A DNA stretch of 64,000 nt from Pseudomonas abietaniphila (GTDB taxonomy: Bacteria > Pseudomonadota > Gammaproteobacteria > Pseudomonadales > Pseudomonadaceae). Shown one piece after another: positions 9,619 through 50,094 of this stretch (its first letter is position 1; every line of letters starts with the position of its first letter). The stretch is from assembly GCF_039697315.1 (NCBI RefSeq), contig NZ_CP155619.1:2418001-2482000 (forward strand). The letters run 5' to 3'. A program made the translations under genes and the position numbers. Below the pieces are notes generated by a model that worked only from the letters and a program-made list of their open reading frames with translations, did not search any database and was not told the origin of the DNA.

Positions 9619-10656
9619 ATGAAACTCGCTCCCGCCCAGCTCTCCAAACACCTCCAGGGTACGTTGTCGCCTGTTTACATCGTCAGTGGCGATGATCCGC
9701 TGCAATGCCAGGAGGCCTGCGACGCCATCCGTGCTGCCGCCAGGCAACAGGGCTTCGATGAACGCCAGGTCTTCAGCGCCGACTCAAGCTTCGACTGGGG
9801 CACATTGCTTCAGGCGGGCGCAAGCATGTCGCTGTTCGCCGAGCGCCGCCTGCTGGAACTGCGTCTGCCGTCTGGCAAACCCGGCGACAAAGGTGCCGCG
9901 GCACTTCTGGAATACTGCAACCGCCCTGCCGAAGACACGCTGCTGCTGATCAGCCTGCCCAAGCTCGACGGTTCCGCCCAGAAAACCAAATGGGGCAAGG
10001 CGCTGGTTGAAGGCGCACAAACCCAGTTCGTGCAGATCTGGCCGGTGGATGCGAGCCAGTTGCCACAATGGATTCGCCAACGGCTTTCCCAGGCAGGTCT
10101 GGCCGCCAGTCCCGACGCCGTCGAACTGATCGCCGCGCGCGTTGAAGGCAACCTGCTGGCAGCGGCGCAGGAAATCGAAAAGCTCAAACTGATGGCCGAA
10201 CAGGGTCAGATCACCGTCGAGACCGTGCAGGCTGCCGTGGCGGACAGCGCGCGCTTCGACGTGTTCGGGCTGACCGATGCCATTCTCAATGGTGAAGCCG
10301 CCCATGCACTGCGGATGCTGGAAGGTCTGCGCGGCGAAGGCGTTGAGCCTCCGGTGATTCTCTGGGCGCTGTCCCGCGAATTGCGCGTGCTCGCCAACCT
10401 GGCCTTGCAATACAGCCAGGGCGTGCCACTGGACAAGGCGTTCAGCCAGGCGCGACCGCCCATCTGGGACAAACGCAAGCCACTGATGAGCAAAGCGCTG
10501 CAACGGCATTCCGCGCGTCGCTGGGCTCAATTGCTGATGGACGCGCAACACATCGACGCGCAGATCAAGGGTCAGGCCCAGGGCTCAGTGTGGAACAGCT
10601 TGAGCCGGTTGTCCCTGCAGATGGCCGGACAGCGGTTGGCGTTGCCGTCAGAATAA
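9619..10656 (+). CDS. holA: DNA polymerase III subunit delta
   Basis: Clamp-loader subunit that opens the beta sliding clamp. The product is 345 residues, the usual length. The N-terminal segment MKLAPAQLSKHLQGTLSPVYIVSGDDPLQ is the standard HolA beginning, the beta-binding and AAA-like domains follow, and the C-terminal collar helix region (KGQAQGSVWNSLSRLSLQMAG) is intact. The start at ATG 9619 lies just after the lptE-holA hairpin. leuS-lptE-holA order is conserved across gammaproteobacteria. Confidence 0.95.
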   Translation: MKLAPAQLSKHLQGTLSPVYIVSGDDPLQCQEACDAIRAAARQQGFDERQVFSADSSFDWGTLLQAGASMSLFAERRLLELRLPSGKPGDKGAAALLEYCNRPAEDTLLLISLPKLDGSAQKTKWGKALVEGAQTQFVQIWPVDASQLPQWIRQRLSQAGLAASPDAVELIAARVEGNLLAAAQEIEKLKLMAEQGQITVETVQAAVADSARFDVFGLTDAILNGEAAHALRMLEGLRGEGVEPPVILWALSRELRVLANLALQYSQGVPLDKAFSQARPPIWDKRKPLMSKALQRHSARRWAQLLMDAQHIDAQIKGQAQGSVWNSLSRLSLQMAGQRLALPSE

Positions 10657-10707
10657 TTCACACGGCCCCGCTGGCGTTGCCGCCGGAATGATGCACACCG
10701 CCCCCCC

Positions 10708-10844
10708 TGTAGGAGCGTGGCTTGTCCCGCGATCGGCGACGCAGTCGTCGTAAATTCGAAAGACGCGGTGTGTCAGCCAAGCTGCATTTGCCTGATTTTG
10801 CGGCGGGTTCCCCGCCGATCGCGGGACAAGCCACGCTCCTACAG
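10708..10844. repeat. REP palindrome pair (GGCTTGTCCCGC flavour)
   Basis: The left arm at 10708-10740 reads TGTAGGAGCGTGGCTTGTCC and the right arm at 10814-10844 is its near-perfect reverse complement (GGACAAGCCACGCTCCTACA). It lies between holA and arfA. Confidence 0.85.
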
Positions 10845-10942
10845 ATAGCACGTCTAACCCATAGCGCAGATCAATTAGACCTCTGCGTTGACATGCCCGA
10901 TGATCACCCCCGCTTCACCCACCCCTCAGAGAGAGACCTGCC

Positions 10943-11101
10943 ATGAGCAAGCCAAAAAAACGGCCGAACAAGGCCAAATCCATCATCGCCCAGCCACTGT
11001 TCCGAAGCCGTCAGGAACGACCTGCCAAGGGCAAAGGCAGCTACCGCCGCGAAGCCTTCCAGTCGAACAACTGGGAGGCTTCTTCCGTTATGGCGGCCTG
11101 A
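10943..11101 (+). CDS. arfA: Alternative ribosome-rescue factor ArfA
   Basis: A small 52-residue basic protein, too short for most ORF finders. It begins MSKPKKRPNKAKS, has the conserved PLFRSR and KGKGSYRR segments and ends SNNWEASSVMAA. ArfA places RF2 on ribosomes stalled at the end of nonstop mRNAs, as a backup to tmRNA; the PLFR, KGKGSY and NWEAS blocks are shared with E. coli ArfA. The start at ATG 10943 follows a GAGAGA-type ribosome site (GAGAGAGACCTGCC). A long hairpin (11051-11082) lies inside the coding region, the hallmark of ArfA self-regulation through nonstop mRNA. Confidence 0.9.
   Translation: MSKPKKRPNKAKSIIAQPLFRSRQERPAKGKGSYRREAFQSNNWEASSVMAA
11051..11082 (+). promoter_or_regulatory. 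Hairpin inside the arfA coding sequence (likely RNase III site)
   Basis: GAAGCCTTCCAGT, loop CGAACA, then ACTGGGAGGCTTC forms a 13-bp stem with a single U.G wobble. It covers codons 37-47, just before the stop codon. In E. coli an equivalent stem is cut by RNase III or ends transcription, so that ArfA is made from nonstop mRNA and tmRNA normally removes it. Only a short T-poor run follows here, so cleavage seems likelier than termination. A second perfect palindrome CCTGAAA-CA-TTTCAGG (11097-11112) overlaps the stop codon. Confidence 0.7.
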
Positions 11102-11188
11102 AACATTTCAGGTTACTGACCGGCGCCCCGCCAACCGGGCCAGCATGTTAAGGTCTGCACCTTACGGTTTATACCTGTGGACCCCAGA

Positions 11189-12523
11189 ATGCCCTTTAGC
11201 TTTCCCCGTCGTTGGCCTGTTCGCCAACTGATCGCCGCCTCCAGTCTCTCTGTACTGGTCGCCTGCGCGGAGCAACCCACCGCTGCCGTCGCCACGCCGC
11301 TTCAAGCCGCTCCTCTTAATGTCGCCAAAGCTTCGCCCTCTGCGCCTTCTACGGTGGCCCAGCCCGACGACGCCAACTTTGAAATCCAGCCTGCGATGAG
11401 CTTCAGCGAGTGGCAGAGCATGTTCCGCGCCCAAGCGCTGAATGCAGGCATTCGTCCTGACGTGTTCGACCGCGCCTTCGCCGGTGTCACTCCGGACATG
11501 AGCGTGGTCAAGGCCGATCGCAGCCAACCCGAATTCACCCGTCCGGTCTGGGAATACCTCGACAGCGCGATGTCTGCCGTGCGCGTGCGCAAAGGCCAGG
11601 CATTACTGGTGCAATACGCAGACGCACTGACGGCGATCGAACAACGCTACGGCGTGGATCGCCAGGCACTGATCGCGGTCTGGGGCATGGAAAGCAGCTT
11701 CGGGCAGTTCCAGGGCACGCAATCGGTGATCCGCTCACTGGCGACCCTGGCCTACGAAGGCCGCCGTCCGCAATTCGCTCAGGATCAGTTGATCGCCGCC
11801 CTGCAAATCATCCAGCACGGCGACATCGATGCACCGAGCATGCTGGGCTCGTGGGCCGGCGCGATGGGACAGACGCAGTTCATTCCCACGACCTACAACA
11901 CCCACGCCGTGGATTTCGATGGTGACGGTCGCCGCGACATCTGGAACTCGCCACTCGATGCGCTGGCGTCCACCGCGCACTATTTGCAAAGCTCGGGCTG
12001 GCAGAAAGGCCAACCGTGGGGCTTTGAAGTGCAACTGGCTCCGGGCTTCGATTACGCCCTGGCCGACGCCTCGACGCGCAAGACCATCGCCGAGTGGCAG
12101 CAGTTGGGCCTGAAGCTGCCCAACGGTTCGTCGCTACCGGCCAATCTGCTACAGCAGCAAGCCGCCTTGTTGTTGCCAGCGGGCTACAAAGGCCCCGCGT
12201 TTCTGGTCATGGATAACTTCCGGGCGATCCTCAAGTACAACAACTCTTCGTCCTATGCATTGGGCATCGGGCTGTTGTCGGAACGCTTCACCGGCGGTGG
12301 CTACGTGCTGGGCCAATGGCCGCGCGGCGATCGCCCTCTGAGTCGCTCTGAGCGCATCGAACTGCAAACCCTGCTCTCGGCCCGCCAGTACGATGCCGGC
12401 GCCCCAGACGGGATTATCGGGGCCAACACACGCAAGGCCATCCGCAGTGCCCAGCAATCCTTTGGCTGGCCGGCTGACGGCTATCCGACTCAGGAACTGT
12501 TGGACAACCTGCGCAAACCGTAA
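11189..12523 (+). CDS. Lytic murein transglycosylase, MltB/SltB family, with peptidoglycan-binding domain
   Basis: Outer-membrane lipoprotein that cleaves the MurNAc-GlcNAc bond to leave 1,6-anhydro ends. The lipobox LSVLVAC has Cys at residue 26. An SLT_2 catalytic domain spans about residues 70-370, with the catalytic Glu in GMESSFGQFQG and the substrate motif SWAGAMGQTQFIPTTY. A PG_binding_1 domain follows at about residues 385-440 (YDAGAPDGIIGANTRKAI). I prefer ATG 11189 because it gives a compact signal peptide; an in-frame GTG at 11177 would add four residues. The distribution of domains differs from the second transglycosylase in the window (17230-18240), which lacks the lipobox and PG-binding domain. 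Confidence 0.9.
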   Translation: MPFSFPRRWPVRQLIAASSLSVLVACAEQPTAAVATPLQAAPLNVAKASPSAPSTVAQPDDANFEIQPAMSFSEWQSMFRAQALNAGIRPDVFDRAFAGVTPDMSVVKADRSQPEFTRPVWEYLDSAMSAVRVRKGQALLVQYADALTAIEQRYGVDRQALIAVWGMESSFGQFQGTQSVIRSLATLAYEGRRPQFAQDQLIAALQIIQHGDIDAPSMLGSWAGAMGQTQFIPTTYNTHAVDFDGDGRRDIWNSPLDALASTAHYLQSSGWQKGQPWGFEVQLAPGFDYALADASTRKTIAEWQQLGLKLPNGSSLPANLLQQQAALLLPAGYKGPAFLVMDNFRAILKYNNSSSYALGIGLLSERFTGGGYVLGQWPRGDRPLSRSERIELQTLLSARQYDAGAPDGIIGANTRKAIRSAQQSFGWPADGYPTQELLDNLRKP

Positions 12524-43492: not shown

Positions 43493-44518
43493 ATGGCCTT
43501 TTTTCCCTGTTTTCTGTCGGTGGTGTTTGTCGTTCGTAATCAGGCCGATGGGCTTGAGGGGATGTTGTGCGAGGCGACGGAGGTGATTGCGTCGATGGTG
43601 TCGGACTATGAGTTGATCATTGTCGACAACGCGTCGAGCGATGACAGCGTGGCGCAGTTGAAGCGGCTGACGGCTGAGGATGGGGTGGCGAATCTTCAGG
43701 TGTATGCGCTGACCAAGGAGGTCGATCTGGACACGGCGTCGTGGGTCGGTCTGGAGAATGCGCTGGGCGATTATGCGGTGGTGCTGGACCCGCTGGCGGA
43801 CGACATTGCGTTTTTGCCGAACATGCTGGAGCACGCGGCGCGGGGCGCGGATGTGGTGTTTGTCTGCAACACCGAACACACGCCGCAGCCTTTGTTGTAT
43901 CGCTTTGCCTTCAAGCTGTTTCACCGGGCGTATCGCTGGTGCAACGGGATTCACCTGGTCAAGGACGCGCCGCAGTTTCGGTTGCTGACCAAGAAGGTGA
44001 TCAATTTCATTCTGCAGCACCCTAAACCCACGATGATTTATCGGCATTTGCCGGCCACGGGCGGTTTTGCGCGCACGTGCCTGACGTATTCGGCGCCACC
44101 CAAGGCGCAACCGCGCAAGCACCTCGGGGAAAGTGTCGACCGGGGCATTCGGATGCTGGTGTCGAGCACGCGCGCGCCGATGCGGCTGGTGACGGCGCTG
44201 TCGTTGTTTGGCGCAGTCATGAACCTGCTGTATTGCGCGTATGTGGTCGGCATCGCGCTGTTCAAGACCGATGTGGCAGCGGGCTGGATCAGTCTGTCGT
44301 TGCAGGAGTCGGGGATGTTTTTCCTGATTTCGCTGGTGCTGCTAGTGCTCGGTGAATACATCCTGAACATGGGAAGTTTTTCCGGCGACGGGCCGCTGTA
44401 TTACATCGGGCAAGAGTTCACGAGTTGCCGGATGACCCGGCTTGAAAAGCTCAACGTCGAGGACGCTGCGCCAGTGATCAGCATGGCGAGAGCCTGGGGC
44501 GGAGAGCGCGCATCTTGA
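43493..44518 (+). CDS. Membrane-anchored family 2 glycosyltransferase (GtrB/ArnC-like)
   Basis: The 341-residue product has a cytoplasmic GT2 domain (SVVFVVRNQADGLEGML, ELIIVDNASSDDSV, VVLDPLADDIAFLP). Two membrane segments follow near residues 235-260 and 280-300. The C-terminal LVLGEYILNM...GPLYYIGQE pattern is typical of polyprenyl-phosphate glycosyltransferases such as GtrB and ArnC, which load a sugar onto undecaprenyl phosphate. The start is uncertain: ATG 43493 is preferred; a GTG at 43415 would add 26 residues. It is the first gene of a seven-gene operon; its stop overlaps the next start. Confidence 0.85.
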   Translation: MAFFPCFLSVVFVVRNQADGLEGMLCEATEVIASMVSDYELIIVDNASSDDSVAQLKRLTAEDGVANLQVYALTKEVDLDTASWVGLENALGDYAVVLDPLADDIAFLPNMLEHAARGADVVFVCNTEHTPQPLLYRFAFKLFHRAYRWCNGIHLVKDAPQFRLLTKKVINFILQHPKPTMIYRHLPATGGFARTCLTYSAPPKAQPRKHLGESVDRGIRMLVSSTRAPMRLVTALSLFGAVMNLLYCAYVVGIALFKTDVAAGWISLSLQESGMFFLISLVLLVLGEYILNMGSFSGDGPLYYIGQEFTSCRMTRLEKLNVEDAAPVISMARAWGGERAS

Positions 44519-45639
44519 TAAGCGATCCAGCGCCTTGCCATGAGGCGATCATCATTGGCGGCGGCTTCTACGGATCGGCGATTGCGATCCATCTGGCCCG
44601 ACAACGCGGTTTCAAGCGCATCGTTCTGTTGGAGCGCGAAGGCGGCTTGCTCAGGCGCGCGTCCTACAACAATCAGGCGCGCGTGCATAACGGCTATCAC
44701 TACCCGCGCAGCTTCACCACGGCCTATCGCAGCCGGGTCAACCTGCCGCGTTTCGTGGCCGACTGGCCCCAGGCGGTGAAGCGCGATTTCACCAAGCTGT
44801 ACGCGATTGCGCGGCACAACTCGAAGGTCACTGCGCGGCAGTTCGAACGGTTTTGCCGCGATATCGGTGCGCAGATCCGGCGAGCGGATTCAGCCGCCCA
44901 TGCGCTGTTCGAGCCGCGCTTGATAGAAGAGGTGTTTCAGGTTCAGGAGTACGCGTTCGACGCCACGCAACTGGCGCGGTGGGCCGTGCAGGAGCTTGAA
45001 GCATGCGGCGTGCAGGTGCGGTTGCTCACCCGCGCGACGGAGATCTATCAGGGCGCAGACCATACGCTGCAGGTGGTGACCGACAGCGAAGGCGGCCTTC
45101 AACGCCTGAGCTGCCGCTATCTGTTCAATTGCACGTACAGCGGCAGCAATCACTTCAACGGAGACTTTCCGGGGCTGGACACGGACCTGCGCCACGAGAT
45201 CACCGAAATGGCGCTGATGCAGATGCCGCCTGCCCTCGAAGGCCTTGGCGTGACCGTCATGGACGGGCCGTTCTTTTCGATGATGCCGTTTCCGTCCCGC
45301 GACCTGCACACCTTGTCCCACGTGCGTTTTACCCCGCATGTGCAGTGGGACGACGACAAGTCGATCAACCCTTACGACAAGCTCGCCCGGCACGAGCGCT
45401 CCAGTCGTGTCGAGCGAATGGTACGGGATGTCGGTCGTTATATTCCGGCGATCCTCGACTCGCGGCACAGGGACTCGCTGTACGAAGTCAAGACTGTGCT
45501 GGCGAAAAACGATCGCAACGACGGCAGGCCGATTCTGTTCGAGAAACACGCCAGCTTACCGGGCTGTTACTCGGTGCTCGGCGGCAAGATCGACAACATC
45601 TACGACGTGCTGGAGAAACTGGACAATGAAGTCTTTTGA
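44515..45639 (+). CDS. FAD-dependent oxidoreductase (DAO family)
   Basis: The 374-residue flavoprotein has the dinucleotide-binding motif IIIGGGFYGSAIAIHLARQ at residues 12-30, followed by ERE and the conserved ARVHNGYHYPRS segment. The C-terminal GGKIDNIYDVLEKL completes the FAD site. DAO-family enzymes oxidise C-N or C-OH bonds; in this operon a sugar or amino-sugar intermediate is a reasonable substrate. The start is TTG 44515, overlapping the previous stop (TTGA), with GGAGAG upstream; no ATG fits. It overlaps the next gene by 14 bases. Confidence 0.82.
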   Translation: MISDPAPCHEAIIIGGGFYGSAIAIHLARQRGFKRIVLLEREGGLLRRASYNNQARVHNGYHYPRSFTTAYRSRVNLPRFVADWPQAVKRDFTKLYAIARHNSKVTARQFERFCRDIGAQIRRADSAAHALFEPRLIEEVFQVQEYAFDATQLARWAVQELEACGVQVRLLTRATEIYQGADHTLQVVTDSEGGLQRLSCRYLFNCTYSGSNHFNGDFPGLDTDLRHEITEMALMQMPPALEGLGVTVMDGPFFSMMPFPSRDLHTLSHVRFTPHVQWDDDKSINPYDKLARHERSSRVERMVRDVGRYIPAILDSRHRDSLYEVKTVLAKNDRNDGRPILFEKHASLPGCYSVLGGKIDNIYDVLEKLDNEVF

Positions 45640-47125
45640 TCTGCCGCGTATCGCCCCGGCGCTCGTCCTGCCCATCGCAATCGCGGTGCTGGCGAGCCTG
45701 TTCCTGACCCTCGCCACACGCTCGATCTGGATCGACGAAGCGATGCTGCTCAAGGACATCATCGCCTTGCGCAGCCCTGCCGAATTTCTCAAACCCCTGC
45801 CTTATTACGATCAGGCCGAGCCGGTGCTGGCGTCGCTGTTTTTCAAGGGAATCATGTGGCTGTTTCACTACAACATCGAGCCTTTGCGGCTGTCGGTCCT
45901 GGCGCTGTCGTGCGTACTCATCTCGCCGATGTTCGTGGTGTTTCGGCAATACCGCTGGGGCGCGGTGGTGTTTCTGTTGGCGCTGATCGGCCACTCGTTT
46001 TCGATAGGGCTGTTTCTGACCGAGCTCAAGCATTACTTCCTGGAAGTGTCGGTGAGCTTTCTGGCGATCTTCGCGCTGTGGCAGGCCGAGGAGCATGACA
46101 ACCTTTATTGGCCGATCGTGATGGCCGCGCTGCTGAGCGTGCTCGGCTTCTCGACGCTGATCGTCTCGGGTGCGCTGCTGGTGTATGCGTTTCTGCGGCT
46201 CGCGTTTCGGCCGTGGGATGAACGTGGCAAGGCGACGATGGCCGCGCTCTTCGCCTCGGCATTGATCGTCGTCGCGGCGTACGCCTACATGAAGTACCTG
46301 ACGGTGTACCAGCTGGGCAACTACGACGATTACTACTCGACCTCGCCGCTGGGCTCTCTGGGCGTGTTGAAGGAGGCGATTCTTGGCGCGTACGGCAAGG
46401 CGTTGCTGATCGTGTCGGCCGTGGCCAACGTTGCGCTGCTGTTCACCCACAAGCGCGGCTTCGTGTTCACGCTGAACCTGTTTTTCATCGGCATTCTGGT
46501 GGTGGTGATTGTCGGCAGAATCGTCGGGTTCTATCCGGCGACCTATCCGCGTCATGTGGTCTGGCTGGTGCCCTTCAGCATGACCCTCGCCTGCTGCGCG
46601 GTGCTGGAGTTCACCGCCAGCCCGTCTCGCCCGCTCAAGGCGTTGGGTCTGGTGTTGCTGGTGTTGATGACGCTGCAGGCTGGCAAGGCCTGTTACAACA
46701 ACGTCAAGGGCGTGAACTACGAATACGTCGACAACAACGCGCTGTACGAGCACGTCGCACAAATGCCGCCCACCGAGTTTCTGGTGTACCCCGACGCTCA
46801 ACCCTCGCTGGAGTACTACACGTTGCTGGACCCGCGCCTGAGCAAGCATCAGTACGTGCGTGTGTACGACGAAATCACCAAAGCCCGCGACCCGAACATG
46901 GGCAGGGTCGAGTACCAGGACTCGCTCGCCGAACTGCTGCGGCAGCGGCCCTCCCGGGATTTTTCCGTGCTGGTGTCCCACGTCAACCTGGACAAGGACA
47001 TCAGCGGCCGAGGCAAGGCGCTGGAAGCCGAAATCAATCGACTCAACTGCTCCTACACCTCGTATTTCTACGTCTACAACGCCCAACTGATCCGGGTACA
47101 TTGCCCGCTGGATGCGCAATTATGA
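45626..47125 (+). CDS. GT-C-type membrane glycosyltransferase (ArnT/GtrC-like)
   Basis: The 499-residue protein has about ten hydrophobic segments and a hydrophilic C-terminal domain from about residue 360. The Asp-Glu pair in TRSIWIDEAM (Asp37-Glu38), in the first periplasmic loop, matches the catalytic motif of GT-C enzymes. These transfer sugars from polyprenyl phosphate to an acceptor on the periplasmic face. FKGIMWLFHYNIEPLRLS and FYPATYPRHVVWLVPF lie at loop positions. I chose ATG 45626, inside the end of the preceding gene; the longer frame is antisense-like read-through. The acceptor is unknown. Confidence 0.8.
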   Translation: MKSFDLPRIAPALVLPIAIAVLASLFLTLATRSIWIDEAMLLKDIIALRSPAEFLKPLPYYDQAEPVLASLFFKGIMWLFHYNIEPLRLSVLALSCVLISPMFVVFRQYRWGAVVFLLALIGHSFSIGLFLTELKHYFLEVSVSFLAIFALWQAEEHDNLYWPIVMAALLSVLGFSTLIVSGALLVYAFLRLAFRPWDERGKATMAALFASALIVVAAYAYMKYLTVYQLGNYDDYYSTSPLGSLGVLKEAILGAYGKALLIVSAVANVALLFTHKRGFVFTLNLFFIGILVVVIVGRIVGFYPATYPRHVVWLVPFSMTLACCAVLEFTASPSRPLKALGLVLLVLMTLQAGKACYNNVKGVNYEYVDNNALYEHVAQMPPTEFLVYPDAQPSLEYYTLLDPRLSKHQYVRVYDEITKARDPNMGRVEYQDSLAELLRQRPSRDFSVLVSHVNLDKDISGRGKALEAEINRLNCSYTSYFYVYNAQLIRVHCPLDAQL

Positions 47126-47904
47126 GCAACGGTCTGATCGGCTTCACCGGTTTTGTCGGCTCGACCCTGATGCGTCAGGCGCGATTCGACGCGCTCTTTC
47201 GCTCGACCACTATCCACGAGATCGAGGGGCGCACGTTTGACACGCTGGTCTGCGCGGGGGCTTCGGCGCAGAAGTGGATCGCCAATCGCGAGCCCGAGGC
47301 CGACCGCAAACGCATCGAGAACCTCATCGATCATCTGCGCACCGTGCGCTGCAAGACCTTCGTTCTGATCAGCACCGTGGACGTGTTCCATACCCCTATC
47401 GGTGTGGATGAAGACTCGCTCGTGGATGAGGTCGGCCTGCATGCCTACGGCATGAATCGGCGCCTGCTGGAGTGTTTCGTCGAGGACTTTTTTCCACGTC
47501 ATCTGATCGTGCGTCTGCCAGGGCTGGTCGGTCCGGGACTGCGCAAAAACGTGATTTACGATTTCCTCAACGAGAACAATCTGACGGCCATCGACAGCCG
47601 CGGCCTCTTCCAGTTTTACCCGATGGTCAACCTCGCGTGCGACATCCAGATCGCCCTCAATGCAGGCCTGAAGCTGGTTCACCTGTGCGCCGAGCCGATT
47701 ACGGTCGCCGAGGTCGCAGAGCAAGGGTTCGGCGTTCCGTTCGACAACGTGCGCGGGGTCATGGCCGCGCGGTATTCGATGCAGACCTGTCATGCGGCGC
47801 TGTACGGTGCCCGGGGCCGTTATCAGTACAGCGCCCGGGAAACGTTGCAGGCGGTGCGCGCATATGCGCAATCGGAACCGCGCTCGATGGGAGTGAAAGC
47901 ATGA
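47122..47904 (+). CDS. NAD-dependent epimerase/dehydratase-like protein
   Basis: The 260-residue extended SDR-like protein has an N-terminal GFTGFVGSTLM nucleotide loop, LISTVDVFHTP in the catalytic-Ser/Thr strand, and RLPGLVGPGLRKNVIYDF. The usual Tyr-x3-Lys pair reads YGMNR (Tyr109, Arg113), so the Lys is replaced by Arg. It is shorter than typical sugar epimerases (about 310-340). It may be an epimerase with altered chemistry, or a binding protein. It begins with ATGA overlapping the GT-C stop. Confidence 0.78.
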   Translation: MSNGLIGFTGFVGSTLMRQARFDALFRSTTIHEIEGRTFDTLVCAGASAQKWIANREPEADRKRIENLIDHLRTVRCKTFVLISTVDVFHTPIGVDEDSLVDEVGLHAYGMNRRLLECFVEDFFPRHLIVRLPGLVGPGLRKNVIYDFLNENNLTAIDSRGLFQFYPMVNLACDIQIALNAGLKLVHLCAEPITVAEVAEQGFGVPFDNVRGVMAARYSMQTCHAALYGARGRYQYSARETLQAVRAYAQSEPRSMGVKA

Positions 47905-48737
47905 AGCTGGCCATCTCCAACATTGCCTGGGACATCGTCGAGGACCAGGCCATCGCCGCGTTGCTCAGGCGCTATGGGGTCGATGCCATCGATGTCGCGC
48001 CAGGCAAATACTTCCCCGACCCAGTGGCGGCAACCAAGCGCCAGATCGCGGAGGTGCGCGACGCGTGGGCGGACCGGGGCATCGACATCACCGGCATGCA
48101 AGCGTTGCTGTTCGGCACCCAAGGCTTGAACGTGTTCGGTTGCGCCGCCAGTCAGGCGTCGATGCTGCAACACTTGAGCGAGGTCTGTCGTATCGGTGCC
48201 GGACTGGGCGCCACCCGACTGGTGTTCGGCTCGCCAAAGAACCGAGACCGCAACGGCCTGAGCGATCGGGAAGCTCAGGACATCGCGGTGCCGTTCTTCC
48301 GTTCGCTCGGCGACATCGCCCAGGATTACGCACTGGCGTTTTGTCTGGAGCCGAACCCCGAGTGCTACGGCGCCAACTTCATGACCGATACCCCGTCAAC
48401 GGCGCAAGTCGTGCGCGAGGTCGATCACCCGAACATTTTCATGCAGCTGGACACCGGTTCTCTGACGATCAATGGCGAAGATCCTTTCGCGGTGCTGAAA
48501 GAAAACGCTGACCTGATCGGCCATGTACACGCCAGCGAACGAGATCTTCTGACACTCGGCGACGGCGATACCGCACACGCCGACATGGCGGCCGCGATCA
48601 GCCGCTACCTGCCGGATCACGTCGTCAGCATCGAAATGCTGCCCAACCGGGTCGAACCGCATCTGGAGACCGTCGAGCGAGCATTGAATGTGGCCATCCA
48701 GCATTACCGTGCAGAAGTCACGGGGCAACAGCCATGA
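47901..48737 (+). CDS. Sugar phosphate isomerase/epimerase (xylose-isomerase-like TIM barrel)
   Basis: The 278-residue AP-endonuclease-2-like TIM-barrel protein begins MKLAISNIAWDIVEDQAI. It has the metal-site pattern of the family: Glu in CLEPNPECYGANFM, Asp/His in FMQLDTGSLTING, the LIGHVHASERDLL segment and the Glu in VSIEMLPN. It probably isomerises or epimerises a sugar or keto-sugar. The start overlaps the previous stop (ATGA). Confidence 0.85.
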   Translation: MKLAISNIAWDIVEDQAIAALLRRYGVDAIDVAPGKYFPDPVAATKRQIAEVRDAWADRGIDITGMQALLFGTQGLNVFGCAASQASMLQHLSEVCRIGAGLGATRLVFGSPKNRDRNGLSDREAQDIAVPFFRSLGDIAQDYALAFCLEPNPECYGANFMTDTPSTAQVVREVDHPNIFMQLDTGSLTINGEDPFAVLKENADLIGHVHASERDLLTLGDGDTAHADMAAAISRYLPDHVVSIEMLPNRVEPHLETVERALNVAIQHYRAEVTGQQP

Positions 48738-49090
48738 AATGGGCGATTCTGATTTTGGGGATTCTCTCCAACGCCTCTGCCAGTGTGCTGGTGAAGATGG
48801 CAATGATGCCGCCCCGTCGGTTTCCTTCGCTTAGCGCGCCGCTTGAAGCCCTGAGCAACTGGCCGTTCTGGGTCGGCCTTGGCCTGTACGGCACTGCGTT
48901 TCTGCTTTATGCCGCCGCCCTCGCCCGCTTGCCGCTGAACATCGCGCACCCGGTGCTGACCGCCGGTGCCGTGGCCGCCGTGGCCTGTTCTTCGATCCTG
49001 ATTTTTCGTGAAACCTTCTACTGGACGACAGCGGCCGGCATCCTGCTGGTTATCGCGGGCGTCGCCCTGATCACTGCGCGGGTGGCCTGA
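48734..49090 (+). CDS. Small EamA/SMR-like membrane protein (possible lipid-linked sugar flippase subunit)
   Basis: The 118-residue protein has four predicted membrane segments (about residues 2-20, 46-66, 74-92 and 96-116). The sequence LNIAHPVLTAGAVAAVACSSILIFRE is SMR/EamA-like and contains the membrane Glu of the family. In the arn and gtr systems similar small proteins (ArnE/ArnF, GtrA) flip undecaprenyl-phosphate sugars, so a flippase role fits; drug efflux is the alternative. It overlaps both neighbours (ATGA before it, TGATG after). Confidence 0.78.
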   Translation: MKWAILILGILSNASASVLVKMAMMPPRRFPSLSAPLEALSNWPFWVGLGLYGTAFLLYAAALARLPLNIAHPVLTAGAVAAVACSSILIFRETFYWTTAAGILLVIAGVALITARVA

Positions 49091-49914
49091 TGACTGACAC
49101 AACCTTCTCTCCCGGACGACCGACACTGACCAAACTGTCCCGTCAGATCCCCTATTTCGAGACGCCCTTGTGGCTGGGGCGCCAGCATGCGTATTGCGTG
49201 GTCATCCCGGTGATCAACGAAGGCGAACGCATCGTCAGTCTGCTGGCGCGCATGGCCGCGCTGTCGATCAATCAACGGGCGGACATCATCATCGTCGACG
49301 GCGGCAGTTCCGATGGCTCACTCGCCCAGGACATGCTGATGGTGACCGGGGTTCGTGGCCTGCTGGTGAAAACCTCGCCGGGTAAACTCAGCGCTCAACT
49401 GCGGTGCGCCTATGCCTTCGCCCTTGATCAGGGCTACGAGGGCATTGTCACCATCGACGGCAACGACAAGGATGATCCGCAGGCAATTCCGCATTTCATC
49501 GAGGCGCTGCAACAGGGCGTGGATTTTGTTCAGGCGTCGCGTTTTCTCACGGGCGGCGTGGCGGAAAACACACCGAAATCCCGCGACATCGCGATCCGCT
49601 TCATACACGCGCCGATGCTCAGTATGGCCTCGGGTTTCGACTGGACCGACACCACGCAAGGCTTTCGCGCCTACAGCCGCAAGATGCTGCTCGACCCGCG
49701 CATCGCTCTCTTTCGCGATGTGTTCATGACCTATGAACTGCTGGCGTACCTTTCGTACAGGGCGCCGAGGCTGGGGTTTCGCTGCCTCGAACTGCCGACG
49801 GTCAGGCGGTATCCACAGGGCAACGTGCCGACCAAGATCAGCGGCGTGAAAGGCAATCTGGCGGTGTTGGCGGTGTTGGTGCGAGCGTGCTGCGGCGGGT
49901 ATGACCCGAAGTGA
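49090..49914 (+). CDS. Family 2 glycosyltransferase (soluble, DPM1-like)
   Basis: The 274-residue protein has the GT2 signature: YCVVIPVINEGERIVSLL, IIIVDGGSSDGSL, then VTIDGNDKDDPQAIPHFIEAL as the Asp-rich metal-binding region. The TQGFRAYSRKMLLD and LGFRCLELPTVRRYPQGN segments are typical of dolichol/polyprenyl-phosphate sugar synthases. There is no membrane segment. It is the last gene of the operon, and a REP cluster follows. Confidence 0.85.
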   Translation: MTDTTFSPGRPTLTKLSRQIPYFETPLWLGRQHAYCVVIPVINEGERIVSLLARMAALSINQRADIIIVDGGSSDGSLAQDMLMVTGVRGLLVKTSPGKLSAQLRCAYAFALDQGYEGIVTIDGNDKDDPQAIPHFIEALQQGVDFVQASRFLTGGVAENTPKSRDIAIRFIHAPMLSMASGFDWTDTTQGFRAYSRKMLLDPRIALFRDVFMTYELLAYLSYRAPRLGFRCLELPTVRRYPQGNVPTKISGVKGNLAVLAVLVRACCGGYDPK

Positions 49915-49932: not shown

Positions 49933-50094
49933 CTTGTAGGAGCCGGCTTGCTGGCGAACGCGATCCGTCATTCACCATTGATGTGTCTGTTTCACCGTGT
50001 TCGCCAGCAAGCCGGCTCCTACAGGAATTGCTGTGTGTCAAACGACCTATTTGATTCAGACACACCGCAATCGCGGGCAAGCGCGCTCCTACAG
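49933..50094. repeat. REP cluster: one inverted pair plus one single unit
   Basis: An inverted pair CTTGTAGGAGCCGGCTTGCT (49933-) and GCCAGCAAGCCGGCTCCTAC (to about 50025) is followed by a third unit of the GCGGGCAAGCGCGC flavour at about 50070-50094. It lies between the convergent glycosyltransferase and LysR genes. Confidence 0.82.

Follow-up and report, generated by a model that had tools for sequence, protein, structure and literature searches.

The phage-carried gtr systems for O-antigen glucosylation (GtrA-GtrB-Gtr) combine a membrane glycosyltransferase (GT) of family GT2 with a small flippase and a variable transferase of the GT-C fold. The arn system comprises ArnC, ArnE/F and ArnT, and its operon also includes ArnA, ArnB and ArnD. 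In DPM1-DPM2-DPM3, a soluble catalytic GT2, DPM1, is partnered by the small DPM2/3 subunits. Donor-modifying redox/epimerase enzymes have been built into load-flip-transfer systems with a GT-C enzyme in C. youngae (ORF12-15, with ORF13 as the precedent) and in mycobacteria (DprE1/E2, Rv3789 and the arabinosyltransferases, with a flippase of the small multidrug resistance (SMR) type); in the available portion of that 2024 paper, the authors were unaware of other epimerases in O-polysaccharide side-chain systems (PMC11127046). Here, we describe a seven-gene operon, g1 to g7, at positions 43493..49914 of a 64,000-nucleotide stretch of Pseudomonas abietaniphila DNA (NCBI RefSeq assembly GCF_039697315.1, contig NZ_CP155619.1, positions 2,418,001 to 2,482,000 of the forward strand), hereafter the window. 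On balance, we favour reading the operon as a mobile cassette for extracytoplasmic glycosylation, gtr/arn-like in plan and equipped with sugar-forming enzymes of its own. It would be a variant of the three-component kind and would work like the gtr, arn and donor-remodelling pentofuranose systems.

All seven genes lie on the plus strand, and consecutive starts and stops from g1 to g7 overlap by 4, 14, 4, 4, 4 and 1 bp; the start codon of g2 is TTG. The first gene, g1 (43493..44518), encodes a GtrB/ArnC-like membrane GT2 without a DxD motif. It is followed by g2 (44515..45639), a DAO-family flavoprotein and proposed sugar oxidase, and g3 (45626..47125), a membrane protein with a modelled GT-C fold and the proposed final transferase. 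Next come g4 (47122..47904), an RmlD-like short-chain dehydrogenase/reductase (SDR) with YGxxR in place of YxxxK and a proposed keto-sugar reductase, and g5 (47901..48737), a xylose-isomerase-like TIM barrel and proposed keto-sugar epimerase. The last two are g6 (48734..49090), an SMR/ArnF-like membrane protein and proposed flippase, and g7 (49090..49914), a soluble DPM1/ArnC-type GT2 with IDGNxKD and SRF motifs and the proposed loading enzyme. A simple hydropathy count gave nine hydrophobic segments for g3, four for g6, two for g1, both at the C-terminus, and none for g7. A first-pass annotation had described seven overlapping same-strand genes with these folds, and the coordinates of the open reading frames (ORFs), the Pfam matches and the 1–14 bp overlaps bear it out. 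The gene set is not a chance arrangement, because the ratio of nonsynonymous to synonymous substitution rates (dN/dS) is 0.05–0.23 across 19 gene comparisons with three related loci (L012 and L008, seven genes each; L007, five, with g2 and g6 left out) and the same set is conserved in other genomes.

The cassette shares with gtr the membrane GT2, variable GT-C enzyme and phage carriage and has a small candidate flippase; its extra genes encode a flavoprotein, an SDR, a TIM-barrel enzyme and a further GT2. A GT-C fold is present in the models of g3 and of one alternative family, whereas the DxD of GtrB is absent from g1 and reads D-G-N in g7. ArnC-like GT2s, a weak, below-cutoff ArnF-like match and the place of ArnT among the best g3 fold matches recall arn, but the sugar enzymes differ, and ArnA, ArnB and ArnD are not among the matches of the seven genes. 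DPM offers the likeness of a soluble catalytic GT2 with a membrane partner, although the partner proposed here is a degenerate GtrB. The pentofuranose systems share the general plan and, in mycobacteria, have an SMR-type flippase, the kind proposed for g6; the cassette differs in its DAO-type flavoprotein, DprE1 belonging to another flavoprotein class, and in its extra TIM-barrel enzyme, and no phosphoribosyl-polyprenyl synthase was matched among its seven genes. Because the GtrB DxD and the SDR YxxxK are both missing and there is no phosphoribosyl step, we do not file the cassette under gtr or DprE. We found no description of this gene set in the literature, the most specific searches being incomplete, and a term search of PMC10715155 and PMC8319346 gave nothing relevant.

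We infer the catalytic steps, carrier, sugar and acceptor as follows. Docked on g1, a GtrB-like protein of the membrane whose own catalytic motif would have been lost, g7 would take a sugar from a common nucleotide sugar and load it onto polyprenyl (undecaprenyl) phosphate. One hydroxyl would be oxidised to a ketone by g2, the carbon adjacent to the ketone epimerised by g5 and the ketone reduced by g4, yielding a rare epimer; this trio could act either while the sugar is still on its nucleotide or once it is lipid-linked. The lipid-linked sugar would be flipped by g6, and g3 would add it to a surface glycan, most likely the O-polysaccharide of lipopolysaccharide (LPS). A load-flip-transfer system with dedicated sugar enzymes had already been suggested in the first-pass annotation. 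The GT-C folds, the exchange of the flippase candidate for a GtrA-family protein and the O-antigen and phage context favour that outline, but not its assignment of the loading step to g1.

Both GT2 proteins match Pfam Glycos_transf_2 (PF00535, cutoff 23.3), g1 with 39.9 bits and g7 with 40.7 bits. The best solved relatives of g1 are GtrB sll0501, with which it aligns over its full length, and ArnC; g7 aligns with the DPM synthase 5mlz (7.4e-09) and ArnC. The solved relatives aligned with the two proteins carry DAD, yet DxD is kept in 0 of 33 aligned g1 sequences, a count that leaves out the duplicate contigs L017, L023 and L031 and the second piece of L015. In its place, Pseudomonas g1 has DPL or DPM followed by DD, and others have DPA, DPE or DSR. 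In six distant g1 proteins (Psychrobacter, Sagittula, Cereibacter, Roseobacter, L041 and L043), the first position is not acidic (NIE, SAE, AIE, TPD, TPT, AAN). GtrB binds its metal through D94-x-D96 and became inactive when R122, R125, R200 or certain other residues were mutated, according to the available portion of PMC4728340. Window g1 has N and H at the R122/R125 positions, as read from the alignment with numbering inferred from the position of DxD. A decaying gene is ruled out by the g1 dN/dS of 0.075–0.12 in three comparisons, which indicates purifying selection. By contrast, D-G-N-x-K-D and SRF/SRY are present in all full-length g7 rows; in L011/L017 and L014, the g7 copies are partial and either do not reach these motifs or lack them. 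In the Cereibacter plasmid (L021 9636-12155), the g7 homologue is fused to a PMT_2 domain. Because no g1 sequence keeps DxD, g7 is probably the loading enzyme and g1 a degenerate membrane partner.

No Pfam family matches g3. In Foldseek, its model matches GT-C enzymes of solved structure across most of its length; ArnT is among the best, and ALG12, AftA, protein O-mannosyltransferase and oligosaccharyltransferases are also neighbours. Membership of an unrelated transporter family, which the first-pass annotation had named as fatal to its proposal, is ruled out for g3, transporters reaching a Foldseek probability of only <=0.13 among the matches listed. W35, D37 and E38 are nearly invariant in a 25-sequence alignment, and together with the modelled fold they uphold the original call of a GT-C enzyme with a DE motif. 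Each core copy (g1, g2, g4, g5, g6 and g7) is paired with a large multi-transmembrane protein drawn from one of several families, and different GT-C families occur in different core clades. Folds were modelled for two of these families, g3 and a 538-aa protein that follows g7 in other copies, and both are GT-C. One P. syringae genome holds the core with the 538-aa GT-C (L032) and an orphan g3-type GT-C elsewhere (L009), the arrangement expected of a donor shared between two transferases. The orphan lies at 9995-11485 of its 21-kb locus, which has no cassette gene.

The flippase candidate g6 gave matches to TMEM234, EamA and Multi_Drug_Res, all below the Pfam cutoff, and scored 27.7 bits against ArnF (cutoff 99). 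Its proposed role is supported by exchange: in three alphaproteobacterial plasmids, from Sagittula, Cereibacter and Roseobacter, the gene that precedes the soluble GT2 carries a GtrA-family annotation, whereas Pseudomonas has the SMR-like g6 at this place.

The remaining genes form a coherent oxidation-epimerisation-reduction set, as judged from their sequences: an oxidase, a barrel of the 3-epimerase kind and an SDR that resembles reductases. With 73.7 bits against Pfam DAO (PF01266, cutoff 27.9), g2 belongs to the DAO family; its profile is closest to the L-alpha-glycerophosphate oxidase 4x9m (1.2e-08), and it shares with distant copies the motif R-x-H-x-G-[FY]-H-Y-x-R and a C-terminal G-K motif. 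The barrel g5 scores 67.5 bits against AP_endonuc_2 (PF01261, cutoff 31.1) and resembles D-tagatose/psicose 3-epimerases (D-tagatose 3-epimerase 8xix, 5.5e-05). Its E150, D184, H210 and E245 are conserved over 34 rows and present in all nine rows of a second alignment; we take them to be the metal-binding and catalytic residues of 3-epimerases. The g4 profile matches the dTDP-4-dehydrorhamnose reductase 8g22 (6.6e-06). The nucleotide motif GxxGFVG and LISTxDV are mostly conserved, so that g4 has both the glycine-rich motif and the triad Ser/Thr of an SDR. YGxxR is found in window g4 and 10 of 11 other aligned rows, Lys appearing only in L045, a weak epimerase-only match; R113 is among the positions conserved over 34 rows. 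No kinase or nucleotidyltransferase was matched among the seven genes in Pfam or NCBIfam, and the trio should therefore work on a common nucleotide sugar or on the lipid-linked form of that sugar. Since g4 is reductase-like, the oxidation is more likely a transient step than one kept in the final product.

The cassette is sparsely distributed. Among 95 relatives, with the window genome counted, g3 occurs in two, and the DAO, epimerase and TIM genes each occur, as neighbours, in the same five. The epimerase-like gene is present in 20/398 genomes of the genus Pseudomonas, and the six-gene core lies together in all 20 (the window plus 19 other mapped regions). Gene order is thus conserved in other Pseudomonas, the check that the first-pass annotation had proposed; an order private to this strain is ruled out by the same set in other mapped genomes. 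Minor departures include g1 split over two ORFs (L015), g6-g7 gaps of ~0.8 kb (L033) and ~0.17 kb (L032), and g2-g4 gaps of 0.2-0.25 kb (L034 and L037). A scan of genome contigs with the g3 alignment gave eight loci, seven with the full set and L009 with g3 only; L010/L031, L011/L017 and L013/L023 are the same contigs found twice. All seven genes are also present, at 92-99% identity, in P. abietaniphila ATCC 700689 (L006). Relatives of the g2 flavoprotein are far more numerous, with at least 7997 matches among 7999 scored candidates, a capped list. Two copies carry duplications. At L011 3381-6253 / L017 13963-16835, a second, partial epimerase-TIM-SMR-GT2 copy with a rearranged GT2 end lies near a complete cassette. 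At L014 12007-15977, near prophage genes, the cassette is followed by a tandem pair of membrane proteins, 84% identical over 540 aa, with a second GT2 fragment between them.

Beyond the genus, the epimerase profile found 7/398 genomes of the phylum and 3/369 of the class, the window genome being included in both. In the phylum set, L038 has the six-gene core, and L039 (a 3.5-kb contig) has g4-g5-g6-g7. L041 has g2, g1, g4, g7 and g5 over both strands. L042 (a 7.6-kb contig) combines g4, g5 and g7 with a GtrA-like gene, as L043 does g4, g5, a g1-like gene, g7 and g2, while L040 (8494-11218) has no cassette genes beyond g4, g5 and a divergent DAO (26%). Genes reading as DeoR-, DeoC- and ABC sugar importer-like adjoin the L040 trio, a region resembling one for sugar import and catabolism. 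The class set added L044, with g1, g2, g4, g5, g7 and a 1075-aa membrane protein, and L045, with only a weak epimerase match.

Mobility is evident from plasmids and phages. Matches to g2 occur in 12/72,556 plasmid records, and gene maps were read for five (Psychrobacter, Sagittula, Cereibacter, Roseobacter and Azospirillum). On the 10.8-kb Psychrobacter plasmid, the set is flanked by mobilisation and replication genes and consists of g4-g5-g6-g2, a g1-like gene that the record leaves unannotated, g7 and a protein resembling g3; the Azospirillum set has no flippase gene. The 35.7-kb phage contig IMGVR_UViG_2903814385 (L067) carries the whole core as g1-g2-g4-g5-g6-g7, together with a convergent 531-aa protein resembling the Roseobacter and Psychrobacter GT-C proteins and the tail-sheath, phrog_55 and CI-repressor genes of a tailed phage. 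The g1 and g7 of the phage copy match the PHROG 'GtrB-like O-antigen conversion', and the earlier statement that no gene is homologous to standard O-antigen systems was too strong. The L014 copy adjoins phage tail and spanin genes. Glycos_transf_4 proteins, which we label WbpL-type, lie beside or within ~3 kb of copies L029, L034 and L036, and WbpM-type proteins (Polysacc_synt_2) lie beside or within ~3 kb of L034, L035 and L037; the matching second Wbp gene of L035, L036 and L037 was recognised by eye only.

The trio also travels in viruses. Eight of 20 viral epimerase loci were mapped (L067, including L047, and L048-L054): one has the core, five the trio, one DAO plus epimerase and one the epimerase alone (L050). 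L048 (953-6869) and L049 (5873-11830) are called T4-like from their UvsX; family scans covered L048, with which L049 was compared by BLAST. Their trio is flanked by a phage gene without assigned function, phrog_14998, on one side and a C5-cytosine-methylase-like gene on the other, with UvsX adjacent; in these contigs, it may be a route to DNA hypermodification. Elsewhere, the trio follows a carbamoyltransferase and a methyltransferase (L051), follows a GT10 fucosyltransferase (L053) or lies near a DegT aminotransferase (L054). With the phage-type flavoprotein as the query, 30 viral loci came up: seven with the trio, three of them already known (L076=L049, L079=L054, L091=L048), one with DAO plus epimerase (L089=L052) and 22 in which no partner was found, some of these ending at contig ends. 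The flavoprotein group is thus broader than the trio, which should not be treated as obligatory. Among GenBank phages, only one 4-kb faecal fragment was found, with weak g2 and g4 matches. A bolder and distinctly tentative proposal is that the trio is an undescribed oxidation-epimerisation-reduction route to rare sugars, shared by mobile bacterial surface cassettes (with a two-part polyprenyl-phosphate GT, two flippase types and several GT-C families) and by T4-like phages, perhaps for DNA hypermodification.

Several observations weigh against a self-contained glycosylation cassette. Pseudomonas g1 retains DPxxDD, which might be a shifted acidic motif, and L038 has DPE; the second DxD residue of g7 is Asn. 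The g4 match to Epimerase (14.3 bits) is under the 20.9 cutoff, and Arg occupies the position of the catalytic Lys of SDRs. No curated cutoff is passed by g6, and neither an SMR nor a GtrA gene was seen in the maps or annotation of L018, L041 and L044. Each GT-C family is limited to one clade of the core tree, with weak support for the g3 clade (68/57). For this reason, frequent GT-C swapping is not claimed; the 24-locus core tree gets by with 8 changes for its 9 labels, the fewest possible. Finally, the WbpL homologue of the window genome lies ~1 Mb from the operon, so gene linkage does not show the acceptor there.

Four alternatives, not mutually exclusive, draw on the same data. The strongest, to which we give somewhat less than even chances, is that the trio does its work before loading, on a nucleotide sugar in solution or on a free sugar, and has been joined to an ordinary load-flip-transfer system. 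The trio occurs with the same core motifs but without polyprenyl GTs in L040 and in viral L048, L049, L051, L053 and L054, and in L040, L048 and L049 neither a GT2 nor a flippase nor a GT-C accompanies it, so that a lipid-linked substrate is not required. This must be set against the absence of a matched nucleotidyltransferase or kinase in the operon, the position of g2 next to the membrane GT2 in most mapped copies, and precedents for lipid-level epimerisation (available portion of PMC11127046). A protein acceptor (pilin, flagellin or an envelope protein) in place of LPS seems unlikely. Protein O-mannosyltransferase and oligosaccharyltransferases among the g3 neighbours and the unlinked WbpL-type gene of the window genome would suit a protein acceptor, but ALG12, ArnT and AftA transfer sugars to glycans or lipids, several copies lie near WbpL/WbpM-type genes and phage carriage fits O-antigen conversion.

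The other two readings appear improbable to a similar degree. Were g1 an active, if unusual, polyprenyl-phosphate GT2, g7 would add a second sugar or act elsewhere, giving two donors or a disaccharide. Full-length alignment with GtrB, purifying selection and the first Asp and later DD of Pseudomonas g1 are compatible with activity; the loss of DxD in all 33 sequences, the six distant members with no first acidic residue and the N/H replacements at R122/R125, residues needed for GtrB activity (available portion of PMC4728340), speak for a degenerate protein. We give equally little credence to g2 oxidising an amine or a 2-hydroxy acid and the trio making a non-sugar substituent. The top NCBIfam matches of g2 are L-2-hydroxyglutarate oxidase and GlpA, and the DAO family includes amine oxidases, but those matches are far under their cutoffs and g4 and g5 resemble sugar enzymes.

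The surroundings of the operon add a few features. Upstream on the plus strand is a CI-type phage repressor (41927..42649; phrog_4 5.3e-37, CI-like phrog_6201), found in a PHROG scan of window proteins that covered the repressor, g2, g4 and g5; a similar CI-type repressor also follows the cassette in L067. Just 3' of the operon (49936..50022) are two exact opposite-strand copies of a 22-bp repeat, an inverted pair seen in 0 of 100 shuffles and presumably like repetitive extragenic palindromes. A sigma-70 promoter scan gave one site, on the minus strand (shuffle mean 2.1), and a terminator scan gave 14 sites (shuffle mean 6.6), none at the operon end; an Rfam scan returned zero matches. Sequence searches of solved structures with the g3 profile, g2 alone and g6 gave no meaningful match.

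If our favoured reading of the operon as a mobile, sugar-forming glycosylation cassette is true, it would be a second, chemically different case of sugar remodelling built into three-component glycosylation. The cassette would offer a genetic handle on an unidentified surface sugar in Pseudomonas and alphaproteobacteria, and two membrane-protein families without a Pfam family would be explained as GT-C enzymes. A split polyprenyl-phosphate glycosyltransferase, composed of an active and a degenerate GT2, becomes a testable idea. Finally, the copies found on a phage contig and on a small plasmid suggest a role in surface conversion, which could alter phage sensitivity.

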